Assembly: GCA_944326555.1 (NCBI GenBank)
Contig: CALVEK010000022.1
Location: 1-33,377, forward strand
Direction: 5' to 3'
Length of the DNA: 33,377 nt
From: Candidatus Gastranaerophilales bacterium
Lineage (GTDB): Bacteria; Cyanobacteriota; Vampirovibrionia; Gastranaerophilales; Gastranaerophilaceae
This document shows, in pieces, positions 12,992-27,768 of this stretch; within the stretch, counting starts at the first letter, position 1; every line of letters begins with the position of its first letter. The position numbers and the translations under genes were made by a program. Under the pieces are notes generated by a model. That model saw only the letters and a list, made by a program, of their open reading frames with translations. It did no database searches and was not told the origin of the DNA.

Positions 12992-13969
12992 TTAAAATCC
13001 TGCCGATTTTTTGTTGCTTTGTATGTTCTTTATAACTGTTTTCACATTACCTTCGGCAAAGAAGTTTTTAGGGTTAATAAACATTTTTATTCTGTCAGCT
13101 TCTATTGTTCTCATTTGTTCTGTTATAGTAGAACGACCGAGGAAAACAATTTCGTTTGGTTTATTTGTTACTTTATCAGGATAAACGGTTGCTTTAGGAC
13201 CTTTTGCATCGTAATCCTTGTATATTACGTGTACTTTTTCTGAAGCCTGAATTATATTTGTTTTTTTGTAATATTCTTGACGACTGGACCATACATTTAT
13301 TCTTGTTCCATCCATGTCTACATCACTATGAGCAGAACCAAGAGCATAAGCGATTTCTTTTACTGCATCATATATGAATTTGTTGGCAGTAATTACACTG
13401 TTTTGTTGTTTGATTCTTCCGTTCCCTGTTAGTGTTAGTTTTTGTAAGTCTCCTGCTTGGTTCAAGTTTGCTACAGCAGAATTAGAAAATGTTTCGACAT
13501 CTTTATAATAGATTATTACATTTCCTTTTGCTGTTAGTGTTTTTGTGTTTGTGTCATATTCCTGTTCGTCTGCAGTTATAACAACTGTAGGCTTCATTGC
13601 TCCTGTTTCGGTAACTGTTGTTTGGGTATTACCTGTTGCTTTTATTTTTTTGTTAAGCAAAGACATTTTCAATATGTTAGCTTTTATTTCACTTGTCTTT
13701 GCCTGCTTTACCTGTACGACATATGGTTGGTCATACATTACTGCATCAGTTAGTTGTTTTGTTTTAGGGTCAATTAAAACTTCAGCTCTTGGCGAAGTCG
13801 CTTTTATATCGTCCATTTTTACCCTAACATTACCTTCAAATTTTGCTTTGTTTTCTTCCATTTTGAAAGTTTGTTTGTCAGATTCTATTGATAAATCTGA
13901 TGCAATTGCAAATCCGATAGTAGATATTGTTATTGCCAATATTAAAAATAAAATTCTAAAATTTTTCAT
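12992..13969 (-). CDS. lptA: LPS transport protein LptA (OstA-like)
   Basis: This is a 325-residue protein with a signal peptide (residues 1-23, cleavage likely near GFAIA). The rest is built of beta-jellyroll OstA repeats, recognised by recurring patterns of D-K-Q-T-F-K-M-E-E-N...A-K-F-E-G-N-V-R-V (about 31-51), A-D-E-Q-E-Y-D-T-N-T-K-T-L-T-A-K-G-N-V (about 130-150) and further A-D-x-I...A-E-G-N-V near the end. At about twice the length of E. coli LptA it probably holds two repeat blocks, giving a longer periplasmic bridge. LptA carries lipopolysaccharide from LptC to the outer-membrane LptD. AAGGGGAA precedes the ATG; its start overlaps the end of lptC by 14 bases. Confidence 0.88.
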   Translation of the reverse strand: MKNFRILFLILAITISTIGFAIASDLSIESDKQTFKMEENKAKFEGNVRVKMDDIKATSPRAEVLIDPKTKQLTDAVMYDQPYVVQVKQAKTSEIKANILKMSLLNKKIKATGNTQTTVTETGAMKPTVVITADEQEYDTNTKTLTAKGNVIIYYKDVETFSNSAVANLNQAGDLQKLTLTGNGRIKQQNSVITANKFIYDAVKEIAYALGSAHSDVDMDGTRINVWSSRQEYYKKTNIIQASEKVHVIYKDYDAKGPKATVYPDKVTNKPNEIVFLGRSTITEQMRTIEADRIKMFINPKNFFAEGNVKTVIKNIQSNKKSAGF

Positions 13970-14537
13970 TAAAATTCCCCTTGCTGTATAGTTCAGTTTT
14001 TGAACGACCCTTTATTCTGACATTTGTCATTTTATTGCCCAAATAGGCTTCATTGCTGTATGTTTTTAATTCACCATTTCTTTTAATAACTACATTTCCT
14101 TGCGCAACAATATCTTTGTCATTACCTTGCCAAGTAAAACGGTCTGCCTTAACATTTGTTCCGTCTTTGTAAATTATGTATGTGTTTTCGTATAGTACAA
14201 CTCTTTTAGTTTCTTCGTTGAATGTACCTTTGCTTGATTCCATACTTAGTACAACTTCGTCATTGTTATAGAAGTTGCCTATTATATTGTATAAAATAAC
14301 GACTTTACTTTGGCTGTCATAGTATCCTGAATCGGCATATAGTTCCCAATACTTCTTATCTTCTTTTGTTTCTGTAATTAATACATCTTTGACATCTAAT
14401 TTCTGTTTTTCTCCTGCATTTTGGAGTGCTTCTTTTTTAAAGTTTTTGGTGATGACGCCTGCAGAAATAAATGCCCAAAGACATCCCAGAAAAATTAGAG
14501 AAAATATTGCTATGTATGCTATTCTTCTTTTTGACAT
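13956..14537 (-). CDS. lptC: LPS export protein LptC
   Basis: This is a 193-residue protein with one N-terminal membrane anchor (about residues 6-28, IAYIAIFSLIFLGCLWAFIS) and a periplasmic beta-jellyroll. The pattern of W-E-L-Y-A-D-S-G-Y-Y-D...V-V-I-L-Y-N-I-I-G-N-F (about 63-89), then S-S-K-G-T-F-N-E-E-T-K and a G-N-V-V-I strand near 147, is typical of LptC. It takes lipopolysaccharide from the LptBFG transporter and passes it to LptA, encoded immediately downstream. No Shine-Dalgarno sequence precedes the ATG; an extended -10 box is placed so that transcription would start at the ATG. Confidence 0.9.
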   Translation of the reverse strand: MSKRRIAYIAIFSLIFLGCLWAFISAGVITKNFKKEALQNAGEKQKLDVKDVLITETKEDKKYWELYADSGYYDSQSKVVILYNIIGNFYNNDEVVLSMESSKGTFNEETKRVVLYENTYIIYKDGTNVKADRFTWQGNDKDIVAQGNVVIKRNGELKTYSNEAYLGNKMTNVRIKGRSKTELYSKGNFNEKF

Positions 14538-14552: not shown

Positions 14553-14779
14553 CGAAATATAAATTTGTTCGAGAAAATTTCCTGAGATATTGTATGTATT
14601 TTGGCAGATATTTTATAGTTATTGGTAGTAATGTGAATATAAACCTTTGTTATATGTATGTTCAGAATAAATTATAACTTGTAACAAAATATTGCATTTG
14701 ATAAAAATATCTGATTTTATTAACAATTTTTTTTATTTACAATATTTATCTCTGGATGTGAAGAATATTGGAAATAAAG

Positions 14780-16186
14780 ATGAATATAAGTAATATTGGA
14801 TTTAACAGTTATGTAAATTTGGTAAATAAGTTCCCTCTCTCGTTTGGTATGGCAACAAAGTCAGACAACAAATTAGAAAGGACTCCCTCTACCGATAAAT
14901 TTGAGCTTAGAGAAGTTGACTTAAAAAGAAAAAAATTATCCCAAGCAGATATGCAAAAAATAGCTTCTGATTTAGAGTATGTTAAAGAAGAAGAGTTGTT
15001 GAATGAAGAACTTCTCTATTTCTTGCAACCTAAAAAAGATGCAAAGGGTCGTATCTCTTTTACACCAAGCCAAGCTCTTGTTATTGGTATGGCAACAAAT
15101 AAAATAAAACATTTTAAAAAATTGGCAAATACTTTGCACTCTGAAGCTGTAAAATATGGTGAGGATTGTGCAAATCAGATGAAAGAAGTGTTCGGCGGAG
15201 ACAAAGGTCTTGGAAAATACGTAGAGTACAGGGCTAAAGATTCTGAATCTATTTATAACAAGCTGGTAAAAGAATATAAAGATAATAAAGTTAATTCAGA
15301 AATGATGGATATAGTGTCTCGTAAGGCATTTAAACTCCCTATTGATGAATTAGATAAAGAGGATAAAGCTCTTTTGAAAATAGCTGTCATGGATGGTGAT
15401 ATTAGTTTTGATTCAAGAGATTATCGAAAAATTGCAGATATCTTAAAACATAGCAGGAAAGATCATCTTGAATCTATTAATTATATAAAGGACTTAGTTG
15501 GTACAAGATTAGTTTTGCCAGTTGGTGATCAAAAAGAGCTTGCACTTGTTGAAAAATATCTTACAAAAGCAATTACAAACGGTGATTTACAAGTTACAAG
15601 AGTAAGCAATTATCATGCTAACCATATTTTGCCTTATATCTCTCACGATGTTGCAAAATACTGGAAACAAATAGTTCCCGGCTTGAGAGTTGTTGAAACA
15701 AAAGAAGTCCGTAAAAAGAACGGTTATACGACTACTCAGATAAATGTTGTGCATAAGGTAAAAACTAAAAATGGTACTAAAGATGTTCTTGGTGAATTTC
15801 AGATACGCACAAAAGAACTTAATTATATAGGCAATGTTGAACATCTTATTTATGATATTTTGCAAAACAAAAATATCAGTAAGAATATTCCTGAATTAAA
15901 AGAATATTACGATAAAATCGGAATAGAAAAAGACGTAAAAGAAGTTTTTAATGATCCTAAAAAAGAACAGGCTTATTTTAATTATGAAAAAGCTATGTAT
16001 TATTGGGTAAGAAACAACGAAACCCAAAAAGATACAGACAGGAAATATCCAAAACCAAGATTATATGAATACGGGCTTGGTGAATATTGGAATACATTGA
16101 GTTTCGATTCTCTTATGAGAATTGATAAAACGGCTTCTGCCATAAAGAAAAAGTATAAAGAAAGTAATAAAATGGAGAATAAATAA
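14780..16186 (+). CDS. Divergent RelA/SpoT synthetase-fold protein
   Basis: This is a 468-residue protein. Residues about 148-355 carry the (p)ppGpp-synthetase pattern: YRAKDSESIYNKL with Arg151 and Lys153 for ATP, IKDLVGTRLVL with the metal-binding Asp238 and Arg243, NGYTTTQINVV with the G-loop Tyr316, and GEFQIRTKELNYIGNVEH with Glu339, Gln341 and Arg343. There is no HD hydrolase, TGS or ACT domain, so this is not a housekeeping Rel. A charged insert of about 70 residues (166-235) separates the first two motifs, and there are extra N- and C-terminal regions. It could make alarmones or, like some toxic small alarmone synthetases, pyrophosphorylate tRNA. ATG 14780 is chosen over TTG 14768; the ribosome binding site is weak. 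The stop overlaps the next start (TAATG). Confidence 0.75.
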   Translation: MNISNIGFNSYVNLVNKFPLSFGMATKSDNKLERTPSTDKFELREVDLKRKKLSQADMQKIASDLEYVKEEELLNEELLYFLQPKKDAKGRISFTPSQALVIGMATNKIKHFKKLANTLHSEAVKYGEDCANQMKEVFGGDKGLGKYVEYRAKDSESIYNKLVKEYKDNKVNSEMMDIVSRKAFKLPIDELDKEDKALLKIAVMDGDISFDSRDYRKIADILKHSRKDHLESINYIKDLVGTRLVLPVGDQKELALVEKYLTKAITNGDLQVTRVSNYHANHILPYISHDVAKYWKQIVPGLRVVETKEVRKKNGYTTTQINVVHKVKTKNGTKDVLGEFQIRTKELNYIGNVEHLIYDILQNKNISKNIPELKEYYDKIGIEKDVKEVFNDPKKEQAYFNYEKAMYYWVRNNETQKDTDRKYPKPRLYEYGLGEYWNTLSFDSLMRIDKTASAIKKKYKESNKMENK

Positions 16187-16602
16187 TGAAAGTGTTGTAT
16201 AACAATAATAAAGGGCTTTCTCGAGTTTCTTGCAAAATGAATGTTGTAAAGAAACCTGTTGCTGACAGATTTGCTTCTGCTATTGGTGAGATATTGTCTT
16301 TATTCCAAAAAACAAATGAGGTTGGAAGAATAGATAAGCCTATAATCGTTAGTATTTTAAAACCATTAAAAGATTCAAAAATATCAGAGGCTAAGATAAA
16401 AATAGAAAGTCCAAAGGTAAAATCGGATTTCCGTTCGAGAGTTTTGTCGTTTATTGCTGAATCTGAAGAATTTAACGGAGGGACTTCTGTTGTAATAGCA
16501 AACGGAAATAAGTTTGCCATTGAATCAACTTTAAAAAATCCTTCTACTGTTATGGAATTTAAGAAATTTATTAAAGAAGCAGAAAAAGATTTTGTATACT
16601 AA
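16186..16602 (+). CDS. Unknown partner protein coupled to RelA/SpoT-like gene
   Basis: This 138-residue protein was not recognised. Its ATG uses the last base of the upstream stop codon (TAATG), so it is almost certainly translated by termination-reinitiation. It is basic at the start (KGLSRVSCKMNVVKKP), then has alternating strand and helix character (PIIVSILKPLKD, IAESEEFNGGTSVVIANGNKFAIES) and ends in a Lys/Glu helix (EFKKFIKEAEKDF). There is no signal peptide or membrane segment. A regulator or antitoxin of the preceding enzyme is one reading of this arrangement; a simple co-expressed factor is another. Confidence 0.6.
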   Translation: MKVLYNNNKGLSRVSCKMNVVKKPVADRFASAIGEILSLFQKTNEVGRIDKPIIVSILKPLKDSKISEAKIKIESPKVKSDFRSRVLSFIAESEEFNGGTSVVIANGNKFAIESTLKNPSTVMEFKKFIKEAEKDFVY

Positions 16603-16740: not shown

Positions 16741-17772
16741 TTAAACTTTTGTTCTGAAACCGTAGTTTTGTGAAATATTTCTTCCAATTGATTTTATTTT
16801 ATCAACTACGGTTTTTTTGTGAGATTCTGCAGAAATATTTTCTCCTGCTTTTCCGGGGTAAATTGTGTATTTCTTTTTGTAATTTATGTTCGTGATATTA
16901 GGCATTACAACATTGGCTCCGCTTTTTAAAGCAAAAATTCTTCCGTCAGGATGAAGTGTTTCCATAGCTGTTGTTGCTGGAATGTTTATATCAGGCAATA
17001 AAAGTCTTGTTATTGCCATAACCTTTAGTGCAAGTGTTAAATCTCCGCCCTGCTCATTTTGTAATGGAGTGTTTGGGGCCGGTATAAAAGGTCCTAAACC
17101 AACCATATCCGCATTGAGTTTTTTAAAAAATAAAATATCTTCAGCAAGAGAGTCTACCGTTTGTAGAGGTAAGCCCACAAGACACCCTGTTCCTGTCTCA
17201 TATCCCAATTCTTTTAAGTTATTAAGACAATTTATTCTGTTTTCAAAGGACATATTAGGGTGCATTTGCTCATAGAGATTTCTATTTGTTGTTTCTATTC
17301 TCAATAAGTATCTGTCTGCACCCGCTTCTTTATAATCCTTATATTCTTGGTATGTTTTCTCTCCAATACTTAGTGTTACGGCTAAATTAAGTTTTTTTAT
17401 CTGTTCGATTATTTTACACAATTTTTCTGTAGAAAAAAAAGCATCTTCTCCAGATTGAAGAACAACTGTTTTGTAGTCCAAATCTTTCGCTAATTTTGCC
17501 AACGAGATGATTTCTTCTTCTGTCATTCTGTATCGTTCTATGCAGTTGTTATCTTTTCTTATTCCACAGTATTTGCAGTTACATTTACAGATATTAGAAA
17601 ATTCAATCAAAGCTCTAAGATGCACATCATCGCCTACAAATTGTTTTCGGACATTGTCAGCAACATTGAATAGATTATTGTTTATTGAGTTATCTTCCAG
17701 AAGTTTGATTATTTCCTCTTTTGTCAATGAATGGCAGCTTTCTGCTTTTTTTATAAGTGCAAAATTACTCAA
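16741..17772 (-). CDS. hydE: [FeFe]-hydrogenase maturase HydE, radical SAM
   Basis: This 343-residue protein is a radical SAM enzyme that works with HydG and HydF to build the H-cluster of [FeFe] hydrogenase. The 4Fe-4S motif CX3CX2C is at Cys62, Cys66 and Cys69 (FSNICKCNCKYCGIR). Other family blocks are TVVLQSGED, VTLSIGE, ADRYLLRIETTN, CLVGLPLQTVDSLAEDI, MVGLGPFIPAPNTPL, PATTAMETLHPDGR and ANVVMPNITN. I place the start at TTG 17772, overlapping the mnmA stop by 8 bases with a G-rich sequence before it. This gives cysteine positions within one residue of Thermotoga HydE as I recall it. An in-frame ATG at 17811 would overlap mnmA by 47 bases and has no ribosome binding site. HydG, HydF and the hydrogenase are not in the window. 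Confidence 0.93.
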   Translation of the reverse strand: MSNFALIKKAESCHSLTKEEIIKLLEDNSINNNLFNVADNVRKQFVGDDVHLRALIEFSNICKCNCKYCGIRKDNNCIERYRMTEEEIISLAKLAKDLDYKTVVLQSGEDAFFSTEKLCKIIEQIKKLNLAVTLSIGEKTYQEYKDYKEAGADRYLLRIETTNRNLYEQMHPNMSFENRINCLNNLKELGYETGTGCLVGLPLQTVDSLAEDILFFKKLNADMVGLGPFIPAPNTPLQNEQGGDLTLALKVMAITRLLLPDINIPATTAMETLHPDGRIFALKSGANVVMPNITNINYKKKYTIYPGKAGENISAESHKKTVVDKIKSIGRNISQNYGFRTKV

Positions 17773-18829
17773 TCCAGCCCCCGCCGATAAGGTGTTTGTC
17801 GTTGATATCATAAAACACAGCTGCCTGACCTGGAGTTATCGAAGCGATTTGTTCGTAAAAATCAATTTTCCCTGTTTTGTTCTCCATGTCAATGATAATA
17901 TGTGCTTTTTGTGCATCCATGTTATATCTTATTTTTACGTATGCATCAAATTCTGTTTTGTTTATGTCGTATTGAACCTTTAAGTCTTTAAAAGTAAGAG
18001 ATGATTTTAGCAAATCTTTTTTTGTTCCAACATAAACAACATTTTTGTGAGCATTTAAGCCTACTACATACAAAGGTTCTTCGTAAGCTATTCCTATACC
18101 TTTTCTTTGACCTATTGTATATTGGTAAAATCCATCGTGGGTTCCTATTTTTTCTCCAGTTTTTATGAGAATAAAATCACCTTTTTGTATGCCAAATTTT
18201 TCTGTAATATATTTTTTTGTTGTCATTGGTTTTGTTATGAAACAGATATCTTGGCTTTCTTTTGCCGATTTGGACGGCAAATCATTATCTATTGCTATTT
18301 GTCTTATTTCTTCTTTTTTGTATTCTGACAGTGGGAAAATAATTTTTTGAAGATGATGTTGGTTAAGTTCAAACAAGTAATATTGTTGGTCTTTTTTTGC
18401 ATCCAATGCCGGATAAAGTTTCTTTATTCCGTTATCATCAACAATTTTTGCGTAATGTCCCGATGAGACTAAATCACATTTTAGTTCGTCTATTGCATAA
18501 TCAAAAAGCCTGCCCCATTTTATAGTCCTGTTACACATAATACAAGGGTTTGGGGTTAGACCTTGTTTGTATGAGGTTTCAAAATATTCAATTACATCTT
18601 TTTTGAACTCATAACTTAAATCAAGTACATGATGAGGAATGCCTATTTTATCCGCAACATTTTTTGCATTTTTTATTATTTGTTCAAACTTATCATCGTC
18701 AACCATTTTTACTGTAACGGCAATGACATCATACCCTTGTTGTTTTAAAAGCAGGCATGTAACACTGCTGTCTAAGCCCCCGCTTAATCCGACAGCTACT
18801 TTTTTTGAAGATAACGGTTTATTCAACAA
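17765..18829 (-). CDS. mnmA: tRNA-specific 2-thiouridylase MnmA
   Basis: This is a 354-residue enzyme that thiolates U34 of Lys, Glu and Gln tRNAs. It has the PP-loop SGGLDSS (16-22), NPCIMCNRTIKWG with Cys99, SAKESQDICFI with the catalytic Cys196, and GQRKGIGIAYEEPLYVVG. Cys99 and Cys196 correspond to the disulfide-forming pair known in E. coli. The start is TTG 18829, preceded by AAGGAGAGG, inside the last codons of the upstream gene (11-base overlap). The 3' end overlaps hydE. The three genes 19505-16741 therefore form a translationally coupled operon that places a sulfur-transfer tRNA enzyme with an iron-sulfur maturase. Confidence 0.97.
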   Translation of the reverse strand: MLNKPLSSKKVAVGLSGGLDSSVTCLLLKQQGYDVIAVTVKMVDDDKFEQIIKNAKNVADKIGIPHHVLDLSYEFKKDVIEYFETSYKQGLTPNPCIMCNRTIKWGRLFDYAIDELKCDLVSSGHYAKIVDDNGIKKLYPALDAKKDQQYYLFELNQHHLQKIIFPLSEYKKEEIRQIAIDNDLPSKSAKESQDICFITKPMTTKKYITEKFGIQKGDFILIKTGEKIGTHDGFYQYTIGQRKGIGIAYEEPLYVVGLNAHKNVVYVGTKKDLLKSSLTFKDLKVQYDINKTEFDAYVKIRYNMDAQKAHIIIDMENKTGKIDFYEQIASITPGQAAVFYDINDKHLIGGGWIE

Positions 18830-22293: not shown

Positions 22294-25200
22294 ATGAGTA
22301 AAACAAAACAGAAACGAATGGCAGCATATCTCTTGTTGCTGTCATTGTGTGGTGGTTCTGTTGGTGCGGCAACACAACCTGATAGTCCGCTTACACCAAA
22401 TAATGTTGGCGCATATATTTATGTAGACGGCAATTCTACCAATACGTCTTTTGATGTAGGAACAGTTTCCGGTTGGACAGGTACAAACCAAGGAGCTATT
22501 GTAAACTATTACAGCGGTAAAAATGTTACTCTTAATTCGCTGCCAAATAGCATTCAAAGTTATATATCCAATGCTGCAGGTAGTGATGTAGCTGGTGCCA
22601 TTTATAACAGTTCTAATGACCAAAGTGTATCTGTTACTATTAATGGTGAGGTTGAGTTTATTGATAATTCTGCCAAGAGGGGCGGTGCTATATATAATGA
22701 CGGCACAATGATTTTTAATAACGGAAATGTTACCTTCTCCAACAATAAAGGAACAAATTCTTCTCTTGGAAATTGGTCCGGTGGCGGTGCTATTGTTAAT
22801 ATAGACGGAAAACTCGAATTCAATAGTGGTAAAGTTGTATTTAACGGCAATACAGCAAACGGTAACGGTGGTGCTATTCTTGCAGGCGATACAGGCTTGC
22901 ATAAAGATTCTCCTGCTTCTGTTGATTTTAATACTGAGGCAGAGTTTGTTGGAAATAGTTCAACTAACGTCGGTGGTGCGATAGCAAATTTTGATTCTAC
23001 TTTAAATGTTGATCAAACAAACGGCAAAGTATCATTTGACGGAAATAAGTCTGATTCCCGCGGTGGTGCAATATATAACGAGGGAACTGCAAATTTAGGA
23101 GAAAATGCTTCTTTTACAAATAACGTAGCGCAAGGTAACGGTGGTGCTATATTTAATAACGTTGATGCCGTAATAAATGCAGGGCACAATATTGTATTTA
23201 AAGGTAATACATCAAATGCTCAGTATTATGGCGGAGGTGCAATATCTAACCAAGGCAGTGTTGAAATAGGTAATAACGCACTTTTTGAAGAAAATTATCT
23301 TGGCGGAGTTTCAGATCCTAACAATGGCACAGCTGGAGGAGCAATTGCTTCTTGGAATGGCGGATCTATTGAACTTGGAAATAACGCGTCTTTTAAAAAT
23401 AACGGTTATACGGATTTAACTCATTCTTCTATTGCTTCTGCAGCAGGTGGTGCGGTTTATGTTTCAGGCGGCGGAAATAATGACCCTCTAAACCAAGGTA
23501 GCTTTGTAGCAGGCGACAACTTACAGTTTATTGGAAATGCTACTAACGGTAGTGGCGGTGGTTTGTATGTTGAAGGTTCTAACGTACAAATTGGCAACAA
23601 TGCTGTATTTAAGGATAATTTCTCTACATCTGGCGGCGCAATATATAATTATGAGTATAATGACGTAGCCTCTGATGTTAAAATAGGCGAAAATGCACTA
23701 TTTGAAAATAATATTGTTAAAGATAACAGCGGTGGTGCTATCTTCAATTACGGCGGTGATTTAAATGTTGATAAAAATGCGACATTTAGCGGTAATACTG
23801 CAGGTTATGCAGGTGGTGCAATTAAAAATTACGGTACTGCAACAGTCGGTGAAGCATCAACTTTCGTTAATAACTCCGCAAGTGCAATAGATAACGGCGG
23901 TGGTGCTATTTCAAACAGTGGTAAGATGACTGTTTCAAAAGGTGCATTGTTTGACGGAAACAGTTCTGCTTATGCCGGTGGTGCTGTATATAATGACGGT
24001 ACATCATTGGTTATTCAAGGCGGTGTTGCAAATAAAACCTTGGCAGACGGTTCTGTGATTCAACAGGCAACAAAGTTTGTAAACAACACTTCTGCTTCTA
24101 AAGGCGGTGCTATTTACAATGCAGGTACAGCTGAATTGTATACTACCGGTGGAGATATTTCTTTTAGCGGTAATACTGCTGCTGATATTGCAAATGATAT
24201 TTATGCGGCTACCTCATCTCACACTGATATTTATGGTATCGGCAACGTATCTATTGGTAGTGGTTTGTTTTCAGAAACCGGTTCATTTATCACTGTGAAT
24301 AATACTTCTAACTTGGTTATTGAAGAAAATGTTACTGCACAAATTGGTGGTGATATTACTACTTCTACTACGGCAAATGTTGTTAATAACGGTAAAATCA
24401 ATATCTCAGGAACAGGTTCCGGAAACTTGGTTAATAACGGAACACTTACTGTAGATAATGGTGGTAAATATGTCGGTAATGTAATCCAGACAAACGATGA
24501 TTCGACTATAAGTGTTCTTAAAGGTGGAACTTTCGGTTCTACTTCTGTTCTCGATGGAGGAATTTTGAGTATAGCAGAAGGTGGTAAGGTTGATAGCACT
24601 GTTAACGTTACCGTTACCGAAAATGTTCTTTTAAAAGTTGCAGATAGTGTTGTATTTGATACAACAGGATTGCGGGTTGGTGGAGATCCCTCAAACGGAC
24701 ATATTAAGGGTACATTTAATCTTAGTGATACAGAAGTATCTTTTGCAAGCGGTACTCAATTTACTCAAGATATGATTTTATCAGGTGATTCTTATATTAA
24801 AACCCAAGATAGTATAGTAAATATCGGTGATGGAAAGTCTCAAAATACCTTGACTTTATCTAACGGTAGTAATAATGCAGCAGGAGGAAAAGGTTTTAAT
24901 GTTACAGCACCTGCTACTATCAAATTGTCTCCTGACGCAGGAAATTCAATGACACTTGATGAAAATGTAAAGGGCAACGGTAATGTTTTAGTTGATCAAA
25001 AAATTACTATGGTTGATAACCCTGAGTATGATCCTGACAAAGCTGCGATTGATTCATCTTATTCTGTACCTGAAAAAATTCCGCATAAGTGGGGAGTTGG
25101 AACGGTTAATATAACATCAGATAACCATGAGTTTAGCGGCAACTTCTTGCAGAAGATGGGAACAGTTATCGCTCAGGCAGGTTCAAAATTCTTTGGCGGA

Positions 25201-27768
25201 AAAAATAACGTCGTACAAGGAGGTACTCTCGTATTGCAAGACGGTGCTGATTTAACATCCGAAGTAAATGTTATTGCAGACGGTTCAAACGGTTACGGTA
25301 CGGTAAACATCTATAACGACATAAAAGGCACTGTAGGTGCTGATGGTGTTAATAGAATTGATGCAGATTCAATTGCTAACGGCAAAAATATTGCTGTTAT
25401 TGGTTATATAAATTCTGATGATTCTGTTGTTAACGTTAATGTTAATTCTGCAGGTTTAGGCTTGTTTAACGGAACAAGAGTAACAGGTGATTTAACTCTA
25501 TATCAAGATTCAGGTGTCAGAGACTTGACCTTTGGCAATGGTTCTGGGGCTGAGTCTGACAATATTATATTGAATGAAGCAACTAAACTTACGTATGCTG
25601 ATAATGCTTATATAAAAGATAATTCAACAGTTTCTGTAGGTAAAAATGCCTCATTGAATTTTGCAAATAATTCTACAAATATTGTCTATAATCCTGTTAT
25701 TTCATCAACTGCTGATACAGCAGCAATTAATCAAACAGGTGCAGGCAAGACAACAATAGCTTCATCTCTTGAAAACTTCAATGGTGAGGTTAATGTAAAT
25801 AACGGTATTTTAGAGTTAGCTTCATCTGAAGATAAATATCTAAGCGCAGTAAATGTAAACAACGGTGCTTTGGATGTTAAAGGAAATCTTGCTGTTGAAA
25901 ATGCAGCAGGAGATGACGGCAAGTTAACCGTAAATAACGGTTCTTTAGCCGTAGAAAAGGCTATAGAAACTAACAGTGATTTGACTTTGAATAATGCAAA
26001 CCTTTCTGTTGGTGATTATCTTGCAGTTGGCGAGAATGCCAATATGACAGATTCTTTTGTGAACATCGCAAATGAGTTTGTTGCAGTGGGTGATTTATCT
26101 GTTGACAATACTCAATTAAATGTTGGTGGAGAATCTGAGTTTAATAGTCTTTCCGTTACTGGCGATAATTCTGTTGTCAATTTGAATAAATCAGCTGCAA
26201 TTGGAAATCTTACTACCGCAGACAAATCTGTTGTTAATTTGCTGGGCAATTCAACAATTCTTAATATGTCCTTGAATAATGATTCTGTTGTTAATTTAAG
26301 AGGAAACTCAGAAATGACAACGTTATCTGTATATAATAATGCAGTTTTGAATACTGCAGGTAATATGCAGGTTAATGATGTCTTTACTATCGGTCAGGCA
26401 GGTGGAACAGGTACACCGACAATTAACATGATGTCCGGTTCTATAAATACAATTAATGCTGATAGTGTAGTTGTTAATTCTAATGCAAACATTTCATTTG
26501 ATGTCGATCCAAGAACTCAGACAACCGACCAAATTGTATCATCTAACATAATCAACAATACAGGAACGTCTGGAGATCCTTTCCAATTGCTTGTTGGTGG
26601 TATAAACTTTACAACATCTCCGATTGACAGGAATGTTCAGTTTGATATTTCAAATCTCTTGACAGATCCAAACGGTGGTCATGCCGACATGATTAAATTG
26701 CCGGATGGCGGATTTTTAACTAACACAGCAATGGGTCAATATTTGGTAACATCTTCGGGTGCAGGTTCTCCTATATTGACAGCGAGCTTGATGAATTTTA
26801 ATCCGCAACAATATAGAGGACAGGTTGCAACAATTGCTTCTTGGCAAAACCAACTTGTTGTTAATAACCTGTTGTTTGACCACGTAAATTTAATTACAAG
26901 CAAATTGATAGAAGAAGAAAGAACTGCTAATAAATATGCATCAGCTATACCATTTATTGACAAATACCAATATAGTGTAAAAGATGGTGGTTTATGGTAT
27001 AAAGCATACGGAGTTTTTGAAACTCTTTCAATGACAAAGGGGCTAAATGTAGGGAATAATGCTTATGGCTCTTTAATTGGCGCAGACTTCCCGTTGATTA
27101 AATTGGGTAATGGATGGAAGATTGTTCCAACAGCTTATATTGCTTACAATGGCGGACATCAGCACTTTAGTGGCGTTAGTATGTACCAAAATGGAGCTCA
27201 ATTAGGCTTTATGGGTACAGCATACAAGGGCAACTTTATGACATCATTGTTGGCATACGGTGGTGGTTATGCAAATGATATGTCTGTAAGAGGTCAATAC
27301 GGAAGCGGTAGTGATACTACTGGTAACTGGTTTGCCGGAGTGGCTTCTAAATCTGCATATAACATTCACTTACCTCACGATTTTGTTATTCAACCTGCAT
27401 TTATGGCAGCATATAATGCTTTCGGTCAACAAAATTGGAGTTCAAACTTTGGTGCTATGAGTATGAGCTCAGGTATGCTTAATGGTATAAATTTAGCTCC
27501 TGGGTTGAATTTTATATGGCAAAAGAAAACATTCAGTATCTATGCAACTACCCAGTTAGTATACAATATTATGGGTAGTGTAGACGGTAAAGCAGGAAAT
27601 ATTGATACTGATCATATTAGAATGAGACATTGCTATTTTGAATACGGATTGGGTGTAATGAAGAAATTCAAAGATACATTCTCTGGATATCTTCAGTTCT
27701 CAATCAGAAACGGTGGAAGAACCGGTATAGGCTTCTCCGGCGGCTTGCAATGGAAGATTGGTAAATAA
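22294..27768 (+). CDS. Autotransporter adhesin with Pmp-like FxxN/GGAI repeats
   Basis: This is an 1824-residue type V secreted protein. Residues 1-25 are a signal peptide (basic start, YLLLLSLCGG core, cleavage near SVGA). Residues about 100-620 hold about 16-17 repeats in which F-x-x-N is followed by GGAI, GGAV or GGGL, the tandem motif pair of chlamydial polymorphic membrane proteins, forming a beta-helix. Residues about 620-1540 are a Thr/Asn/Val-rich beta-helical stalk with recurring V-x-N-N-G and L-x-V elements. Residues about 1564-1824 are the outer-membrane beta-barrel (from GGLWYKAYGVFETL), ending GGLQWKIGK. AGGAGAG precedes the ATG. It likely displays an adhesin on the cell surface. 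It is monocistronic with a strong terminator. Confidence 0.92.
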   Translation: MSKTKQKRMAAYLLLLSLCGGSVGAATQPDSPLTPNNVGAYIYVDGNSTNTSFDVGTVSGWTGTNQGAIVNYYSGKNVTLNSLPNSIQSYISNAAGSDVAGAIYNSSNDQSVSVTINGEVEFIDNSAKRGGAIYNDGTMIFNNGNVTFSNNKGTNSSLGNWSGGGAIVNIDGKLEFNSGKVVFNGNTANGNGGAILAGDTGLHKDSPASVDFNTEAEFVGNSSTNVGGAIANFDSTLNVDQTNGKVSFDGNKSDSRGGAIYNEGTANLGENASFTNNVAQGNGGAIFNNVDAVINAGHNIVFKGNTSNAQYYGGGAISNQGSVEIGNNALFEENYLGGVSDPNNGTAGGAIASWNGGSIELGNNASFKNNGYTDLTHSSIASAAGGAVYVSGGGNNDPLNQGSFVAGDNLQFIGNATNGSGGGLYVEGSNVQIGNNAVFKDNFSTSGGAIYNYEYNDVASDVKIGENALFENNIVKDNSGGAIFNYGGDLNVDKNATFSGNTAGYAGGAIKNYGTATVGEASTFVNNSASAIDNGGGAISNSGKMTVSKGALFDGNSSAYAGGAVYNDGTSLVIQGGVANKTLADGSVIQQATKFVNNTSASKGGAIYNAGTAELYTTGGDISFSGNTAADIANDIYAATSSHTDIYGIGNVSIGSGLFSETGSFITVNNTSNLVIEENVTAQIGGDITTSTTANVVNNGKINISGTGSGNLVNNGTLTVDNGGKYVGNVIQTNDDSTISVLKGGTFGSTSVLDGGILSIAEGGKVDSTVNVTVTENVLLKVADSVVFDTTGLRVGGDPSNGHIKGTFNLSDTEVSFASGTQFTQDMILSGDSYIKTQDSIVNIGDGKSQNTLTLSNGSNNAAGGKGFNVTAPATIKLSPDAGNSMTLDENVKGNGNVLVDQKITMVDNPEYDPDKAAIDSSYSVPEKIPHKWGVGTVNITSDNHEFSGNFLQKMGTVIAQAGSKFFGGKNNVVQGGTLVLQDGADLTSEVNVIADGSNGYGTVNIYNDIKGTVGADGVNRIDADSIANGKNIAVIGYINSDDSVVNVNVNSAGLGLFNGTRVTGDLTLYQDSGVRDLTFGNGSGAESDNIILNEATKLTYADNAYIKDNSTVSVGKNASLNFANNSTNIVYNPVISSTADTAAINQTGAGKTTIASSLENFNGEVNVNNGILELASSEDKYLSAVNVNNGALDVKGNLAVENAAGDDGKLTVNNGSLAVEKAIETNSDLTLNNANLSVGDYLAVGENANMTDSFVNIANEFVAVGDLSVDNTQLNVGGESEFNSLSVTGDNSVVNLNKSAAIGNLTTADKSVVNLLGNSTILNMSLNNDSVVNLRGNSEMTTLSVYNNAVLNTAGNMQVNDVFTIGQAGGTGTPTINMMSGSINTINADSVVVNSNANISFDVDPRTQTTDQIVSSNIINNTGTSGDPFQLLVGGINFTTSPIDRNVQFDISNLLTDPNGGHADMIKLPDGGFLTNTAMGQYLVTSSGAGSPILTASLMNFNPQQYRGQVATIASWQNQLVVNNLLFDHVNLITSKLIEEERTANKYASAIPFIDKYQYSVKDGGLWYKAYGVFETLSMTKGLNVGNNAYGSLIGADFPLIKLGNGWKIVPTAYIAYNGGHQHFSGVSMYQNGAQLGFMGTAYKGNFMTSLLAYGGGYANDMSVRGQYGSGSDTTGNWFAGVASKSAYNIHLPHDFVIQPAFMAAYNAFGQQNWSSNFGAMSMSSGMLNGINLAPGLNFIWQKKTFSIYATTQLVYNIMGSVDGKAGNIDTDHIRMRHCYFEYGLGVMKKFKDTFSGYLQFSIRNGGRTGIGFSGGLQWKIGK

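Follow-up and report, generated by a model that had tools for sequence, protein, structure and literature searches.

Within the window, the 33,377-nucleotide stretch of Candidatus Gastranaerophilales DNA analysed here, two forward-strand genes overlap at their stop and start codons. The first (14780–16186, + strand; ATG start, with a TTG at 14768 as an alternative) encodes a 468-residue protein, a predicted 3′-pyrophosphokinase, that profile, PDB and alignment matches place as a divergent member in the RelA/SpoT synthetase fold, to which the producers of the stress signal ppGpp belong. The second (16186–16602, + strand) encodes a partner protein of 138 residues with conserved E45-x-G47, G107 and L116, belonging to a new companion family found across the order. 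A first-pass annotation had described a divergent RelA/SpoT-type synthetase coupled to a partner of unrecognised family, and our analysis supports that description. The TAATG junction is borne out by the two ATG-initiated open reading frames (ORFs), the charged insert of about 70 residues is real (K161 to D238, 77 residues), and the key residues it had singled out (R151, K153, D238, R243, Y316, E339, Q341 and R343) are numbered exactly and invariant in 23 homologues. The complete motif set reads R151-x-K153...S157...K161, D238/R243, NGY316, E339-x-Q341-x-R343 and E354-H355. It comprises a pyrophosphate-donor (ATP) motif, RAKDSESIYNK (residues 151–161; 15230–15262, + strand), a catalytic DLVGTR (D238–R243; 15491–15508, + strand), a long family-specific G-loop with NY (277–278), LPYIS (284–288) and KKNGY (312–316) (15608–15727, + strand), and a catalytic GEFQIRT (residues 338–344; 15791–15811, + strand).

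The assignment to the RelA/SpoT superfamily rests on several comparisons. The Pfam model RelA_SpoT (PF04607) matched residues 219–356 (E 1.4e-5; 25.8 bits, just under the 27-bit cut-off) and was also matched by 20 of 23 synthetase relatives, with a best E of 4e-8; L072, a member of the same family, scored 31.5 bits, above the cut-off. Among PDB sequences, the 468-residue protein matched small alarmone synthetases only (2be3, YjbM and YwaC), and a wider-family profile matched both small and long alarmone synthetases. In a profile-profile comparison (hhalign) of 66 family domains with 26 synthetase domains of ordinary long RSH proteins, the two groups aligned from the ATP motif through E-x-Q-I-R to the following E-H, with 92% probability and an E of 6e-7. 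Pfam and NCBIfam scans found no HD, TGS or ACT domain in the 468-residue protein, in agreement with the first-pass annotation. Structure models had a mean pLDDT of 46 for the synthetase and 40 for the partner, too poor for inferring a fold or an interface.

We then aligned 84 synthetase domains from the order-wide family described below. No substitution occurs at R151, K153, D238, Y316, E339 or Q341 in any of the 84, and K161, R243 and Y278 are each identical in 83. The acceptor side of the pocket is less conventional. In RelSeq, GDP stacks on Tyr308, together with Lys304 and Asn306, and its phosphates are contacted by Lys304, Lys297, Tyr299 and His312 (PMC9143738). The alignment indicates that the family keeps Tyr308 (Y316), Lys304 (K312; Lys or Arg in 72 of 84 domains) and Tyr299 (Y278). 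At the position of Lys297 it has Ser, Glu or Asn, and at that of His312 it has Gln in 72 of 84 domains, with the alignment being uncertain near the long insert; the window protein has S276 and Q320 there, subject to the same uncertainty around the G-loop insert. This G-loop is ~29 residues longer than that of RelSeq, with 38 residues from Y278 to Y316 against nine from Tyr299 to Tyr308. As two of the four RelSeq 5′-phosphate contacts appear to be replaced, it would be premature to take GDP or GTP for the acceptor, and the family enzyme may use a different one; the altered site would be a plausible source of a new acceptor substrate. A similarly reduced phosphate-binding patch is known from the tRNA-modifying FaRel2 (PMC11782079).

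The same replacements, together with two long inserts, one within the G-loop and one separating the ATP motif from the catalytic Asp, could instead mark a catalytically altered or dead relative of RelA/SpoT, serving, for example, in nucleotide sensing or tRNA binding. We consider this very unlikely, since drift would have lost ATP-binding and catalytic key residues that are identical in 84 of 84 domains. Moreover, both genes are under purifying selection, with dN/dS of 0.04–0.18 for close pairs.

The pair is a stable feature of its genus. The synthetase was found in 21 of 22 other genomes of the genus, the sole exception being 80% complete, and the co-occurrence analysis found the partner ORF directly downstream in each of these 21; the two genes are arranged likewise in another genus, g33. 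Named genomes yielded two relatives, with 71 and 64% identity, both from metagenome-assembled genomes of Candidatus Gastranaerophilales. Conservation of both genes in the genus, combined with purifying selection, indicates that the two genes are not a product of chance. In all 18 contexts examined from the two genera, the pair diverges from lptC (13956–14537, − strand), which is followed by lptA (12992–13969). The first-pass annotation had suggested a toxin-antitoxin-like unit specific to this lineage. Its toxin-antitoxin logic is probably right, but the window copy occupies a fixed chromosomal locus beside lptC-lptA, and on account of this identical address in 18 of 18 contexts we rejected a mobile toxin-antitoxin module for it; the pair likewise had no match in phage, plasmid or viral-contig sequences. 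The synthetase itself diverges much faster than its neighbours, as in L104, in which it has 45% identity compared with 75% for lptC. The genome also encodes an ordinary long RSH of 764 residues, separate from the 468-residue synthetase. Because a long RSH is present here, as it is in 57 of the 60 genomes examined in the class, the 468-residue synthetase is an additional enzyme. Elsewhere in the window, a HydE-type radical SAM maturase gene (16741–17811), beside mnmA, lies next to the two genes in most members of the genus, though not in every one. Positions 22294–27768 encode an autotransporter-like protein of 1824 residues, which contains GGAI(Y/F)N repeats and has a barrel-like C-terminal end.

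An order-wide search with a profile built from a 29-row domain alignment (threshold E 1e-4 or better) detected the synthetase domain in 177 of 241 Gastranaerophilales genomes, representing 37 of 50 genera. It was not detected in any listed genome outside the order in the phylum sample, nor in 17 genomes from other orders of the class; the profile does not pick up the ordinary RSH (E 0.7). The proposed lineage specificity thus holds within what was searched, but at the level of the order rather than the genus. The domain is often carried by proteins much larger than the 468 residues of the window protein, with ORFs spanning 309 to 4366 residues. Giant ORFs of 1200–4366 residues (L146 (G023:C4, 4366 residues), L147, L123, L058, L060, L118 and L128) hold the domain centrally or at the C-terminus. 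Large carriers have unrelated extra segments, including calpain-like (L060) and HD (L058, L061) regions and, by eye, a HEIAH motif (L057). Several giant ORFs also have EF-hand-like DxDGDG stretches at the N-terminus, and others share a helical start.

Nearly every synthetase ORF, whatever its size, is followed on the same strand by an ORF of ~140 residues. Among the 81 synthetase ORFs with room downstream, 70 had a same-strand ORF of 110–160 residues within 110 nt, compared with 44 of 414 other long ORFs; for downstream ORFs of 130–160 residues, the counts were 63 of 81 and 30 of 414. A profile iterated from the window's partner recruited 66 of the 73 downstream ORFs but not one of the 447 controls, the nearest of which scored an E of 0.0011. 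A partner profile also recovered the diverged partners in G009 and G022 (E 3e-35 and 3e-34), which a single-sequence search had missed. Six of the seven remaining downstream ORFs form a family of 119–125 residues tied to synthetases of 309–365 residues. This second companion family has INFKAT-like starts, and the synthetases that it follows form a class of their own (L071, L074, L129, L132, L133 and L134). Five further synthetase relatives of ~340–460 residues (L072, L131, L135, L136 and L137) have a DTVSF tag and lack a recognisable partner; they are possibly an ancestral or partner-free subfamily.

The linkage also holds in the reverse direction. We compared 131 partner genes from across the order with the synthetase list, leaving out weaker matches and those whose synthetase match fell outside that list, and 128 of them come immediately after a synthetase domain, in the same orientation. 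Of the other three, two are at the start of a contig, and the third is a genuine orphan (G034:C2:84657–85046, E 9e-15), distant from every synthetase domain on the list. Clustering of 598 ORFs from 59 contexts outside the genus showed the partner recurring at 43 loci and the next-best family at 11, so that the partner is the only widely recurrent family besides the synthetase. The partner had no convincing match in Pfam, NCBIfam, PADLOC, PHROG or PDB, and none of these linked it to a known antitoxin family. Matches to Spo7 and DUF5512 (Pfam, E 0.01) and to PDB entries 4o8w (E 0.03) and 2ldk (E 0.14, or 1.4 with a larger alignment) were treated as chance.

Domain and partner have diverged in parallel. 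Their pairwise distances correlated with a Mantel rho of 0.57, the best of 500 shuffles reaching 0.09; outside the two short-form genera, rho was 0.57 compared with 0.21 for shuffles. This correlation is in part due to species descent. The domain and partner trees share most clades, and in G054, which has two pairs (the short L111 and the giant L122), the pairs sort to different clades in both trees, with each partner grouping by its own synthetase type and not with its genome-mate.

Taken together, these patterns suggest how the unit might work. The synthetase domain is the only part common to carriers of 309 to 4366 residues and would therefore be the partner's target, upon which the partner most likely acts either as an inhibitor (antitoxin or immunity protein) or as an obligate regulator. 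On balance, we regard a cognate unit as the probable reading, in which the first gene would encode an active ATP-dependent 3′-pyrophosphokinase of the RelA/SpoT fold and the second a small protein that would bind its synthetase domain directly. Such binding would inhibit the enzyme, much as antitoxins and immunity proteins do. Cognate inhibitors are known for toxSAS and for several exported synthetases (PMC11782079, PMC12691689, PMC12226406): ATfaRel2 blocks the ATP site, whereas Tis1 and IapK block the acceptor site (PMC11782079; PMC12226406). Since the known cognate genes beside such domains mostly encode inhibitors, restraint of a harmful pyrophosphokinase is the best supported role and ranks above obligate regulatory subunit, export chaperone and dead enzyme, in descending order.

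The second-ranked alternative, that the synthetase is a cytoplasmic signalling enzyme whose partner is an obligate sensor or activator subunit and which makes an alarmone-like nucleotide upon a lineage-specific cue, appears possible but distinctly less probable. The fixed lptC-lptA locus, seen across two genera in 18 of 18 contexts, would suit a housekeeping role, as would the strong purifying selection on both genes, the near lack of orphan partners and the lack of secretion genes nearby. It does not readily explain why domain and partner also occur in proteins of 1200–4366 residues with unrelated segments and at unrelated loci. In addition, about a quarter of the genomes lack the domain, which would be odd for a housekeeping signal, and a long RSH is already present in almost all genomes.

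Several known systems resemble the family and also differ from it. Like the toxSAS enzymes (FaRel, FaRel2, PhRel and CapRel), it joins a hydrolase-free RelA/SpoT synthetase to an adjacent cognate small protein, although in CapRel the inhibitory part is fused rather than encoded by a separate gene. It differs from toxSAS in that the enzyme gene comes first and the partner second, the partner is of a different, unrecognised family without a PADLOC or PHROG match, the locus is chromosomally fixed in the genus without a phage or plasmid match, and the relatives include giant multidomain proteins. Exported alarmone synthetases include Apk1/Tas1 (type VI), Apk2 (MuF phage toxins), AaEAS (type VII) and XopAD-linked domains (PMC12691689, PMC12226406). 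The family resembles these in having the domain in larger proteins and a small cognate gene downstream, in effector-immunity order. Unlike them, it has no recognisable export domain of those named in the PMC12691689 survey, its domain is central in several large forms and not always C-terminal, and orphan partner genes are almost absent. That survey did not extend its search to large multidomain proteins, and Gastranaerophilales are not mentioned in its main text.

RelP and RelQ (YwaC/YjbM) are the best matches among solved structures and share the Ser/Asn-Gly-Tyr, E-x-Q-I-R and E-H motifs. Their solved chains have ~210–255 residues, whereas the window protein has an extra 140 N-terminal residues, an insert before the catalytic Asp, the lengthened G-loop, a Gln in place of the His that follows the G-loop, and a partner gene that is nearly obligatory. 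Long RSH proteins (Rel, RelA and SpoT) have the same synthetase core and catalytic residues, together with the HD, TGS and ACT domains that the window protein lacks. The synthetase branch and its partner thus represent a lineage-specific variety of the systems that pair a synthetase with a cognate protein, distinguished by its new partner family and by its unusual carriers. We found no earlier description of the pair in the open-access literature searched. Alarmone-type synthetases have lately been recognised as toxins and exported effectors in addition to stress sensors, and here a divergent branch occurs in three quarters of the genomes sampled from an uncultured, gut-dwelling order of cyanobacteria. 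This branch is mostly accompanied by a single new companion family and often sits inside giant proteins. The small size of the pair permits direct testing in E. coli.

Finally, we considered whether the synthetases might be exported. The window protein begins with MNISNIGF...FPLSFG followed by LERTPSTDKF (14780–14900, + strand), an N-terminal lineage tag recognised from relatives and from a sample of its own genome. Tags of this type, [hydrophobic][N/S/T/P]F[G/K]G, also occur on unrelated proteins of the same genome. In the 300-kb sample surveyed, they are enriched in the first 65 residues relative to protein interiors, and the tag could be a sorting signal. Pfam and NCBIfam scans of the window protein and Pfam scans of the large relatives revealed no LXG, MuF, PAAR/Rhs, DUF4157 or XopAD export domain, and no secretion gene recurred beside the pairs in 59 contexts outside the genus. 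From the giant carriers, the EF-hand-like N-terminal stretches and the lineage-wide tag, one might guess that the large members, and perhaps, by its tag, the window protein, are exported effectors whose partner protects the producer. The fullest version of this idea, with order-wide effectors of up to 4366 residues leaving by an undescribed F[G/K]G-marked route, transferring pyrophosphate to a non-canonical acceptor and being countered by a new immunity family, seems to us rather unlikely as a whole. The near absence of orphan partners (1 in 131) and the low dN/dS argue against an arms-race effector.

Classical secretion chaperones attach to the N-terminal region of an effector, and those of type III systems are acidic. 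A partner of this kind, keeping an effector synthetase soluble and delivering it to some secretion route, would account for a small companion gene directly downstream. It would also fit the frequent occurrence of the lineage tag on partners of large proteins (among all 73 partners, 21 have it in their first 45 residues) and the presence in the genome sample of an ORF that by eye resembles the flagellar export protein FliR (L083). However, the N-termini of the carriers are wholly different, yet the partner follows the synthetase domain, and by inspection the window's partner looks basic, making a chaperone role improbable and leaving restraint of the synthetase domain as the preferred reading. 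In the same sample, Ser/Asn-rich starts of 5–60 residues ending in [N/S/T/P]F[G/K]G were present on ~4–5% of ORFs. Their bearers include a 5′-nucleotidase-like protein and an AAA ATPase (own-genome loci L079–L088), with examples at L088:6727 and 8392, L087:2550–5420 and L082:14987–17854.
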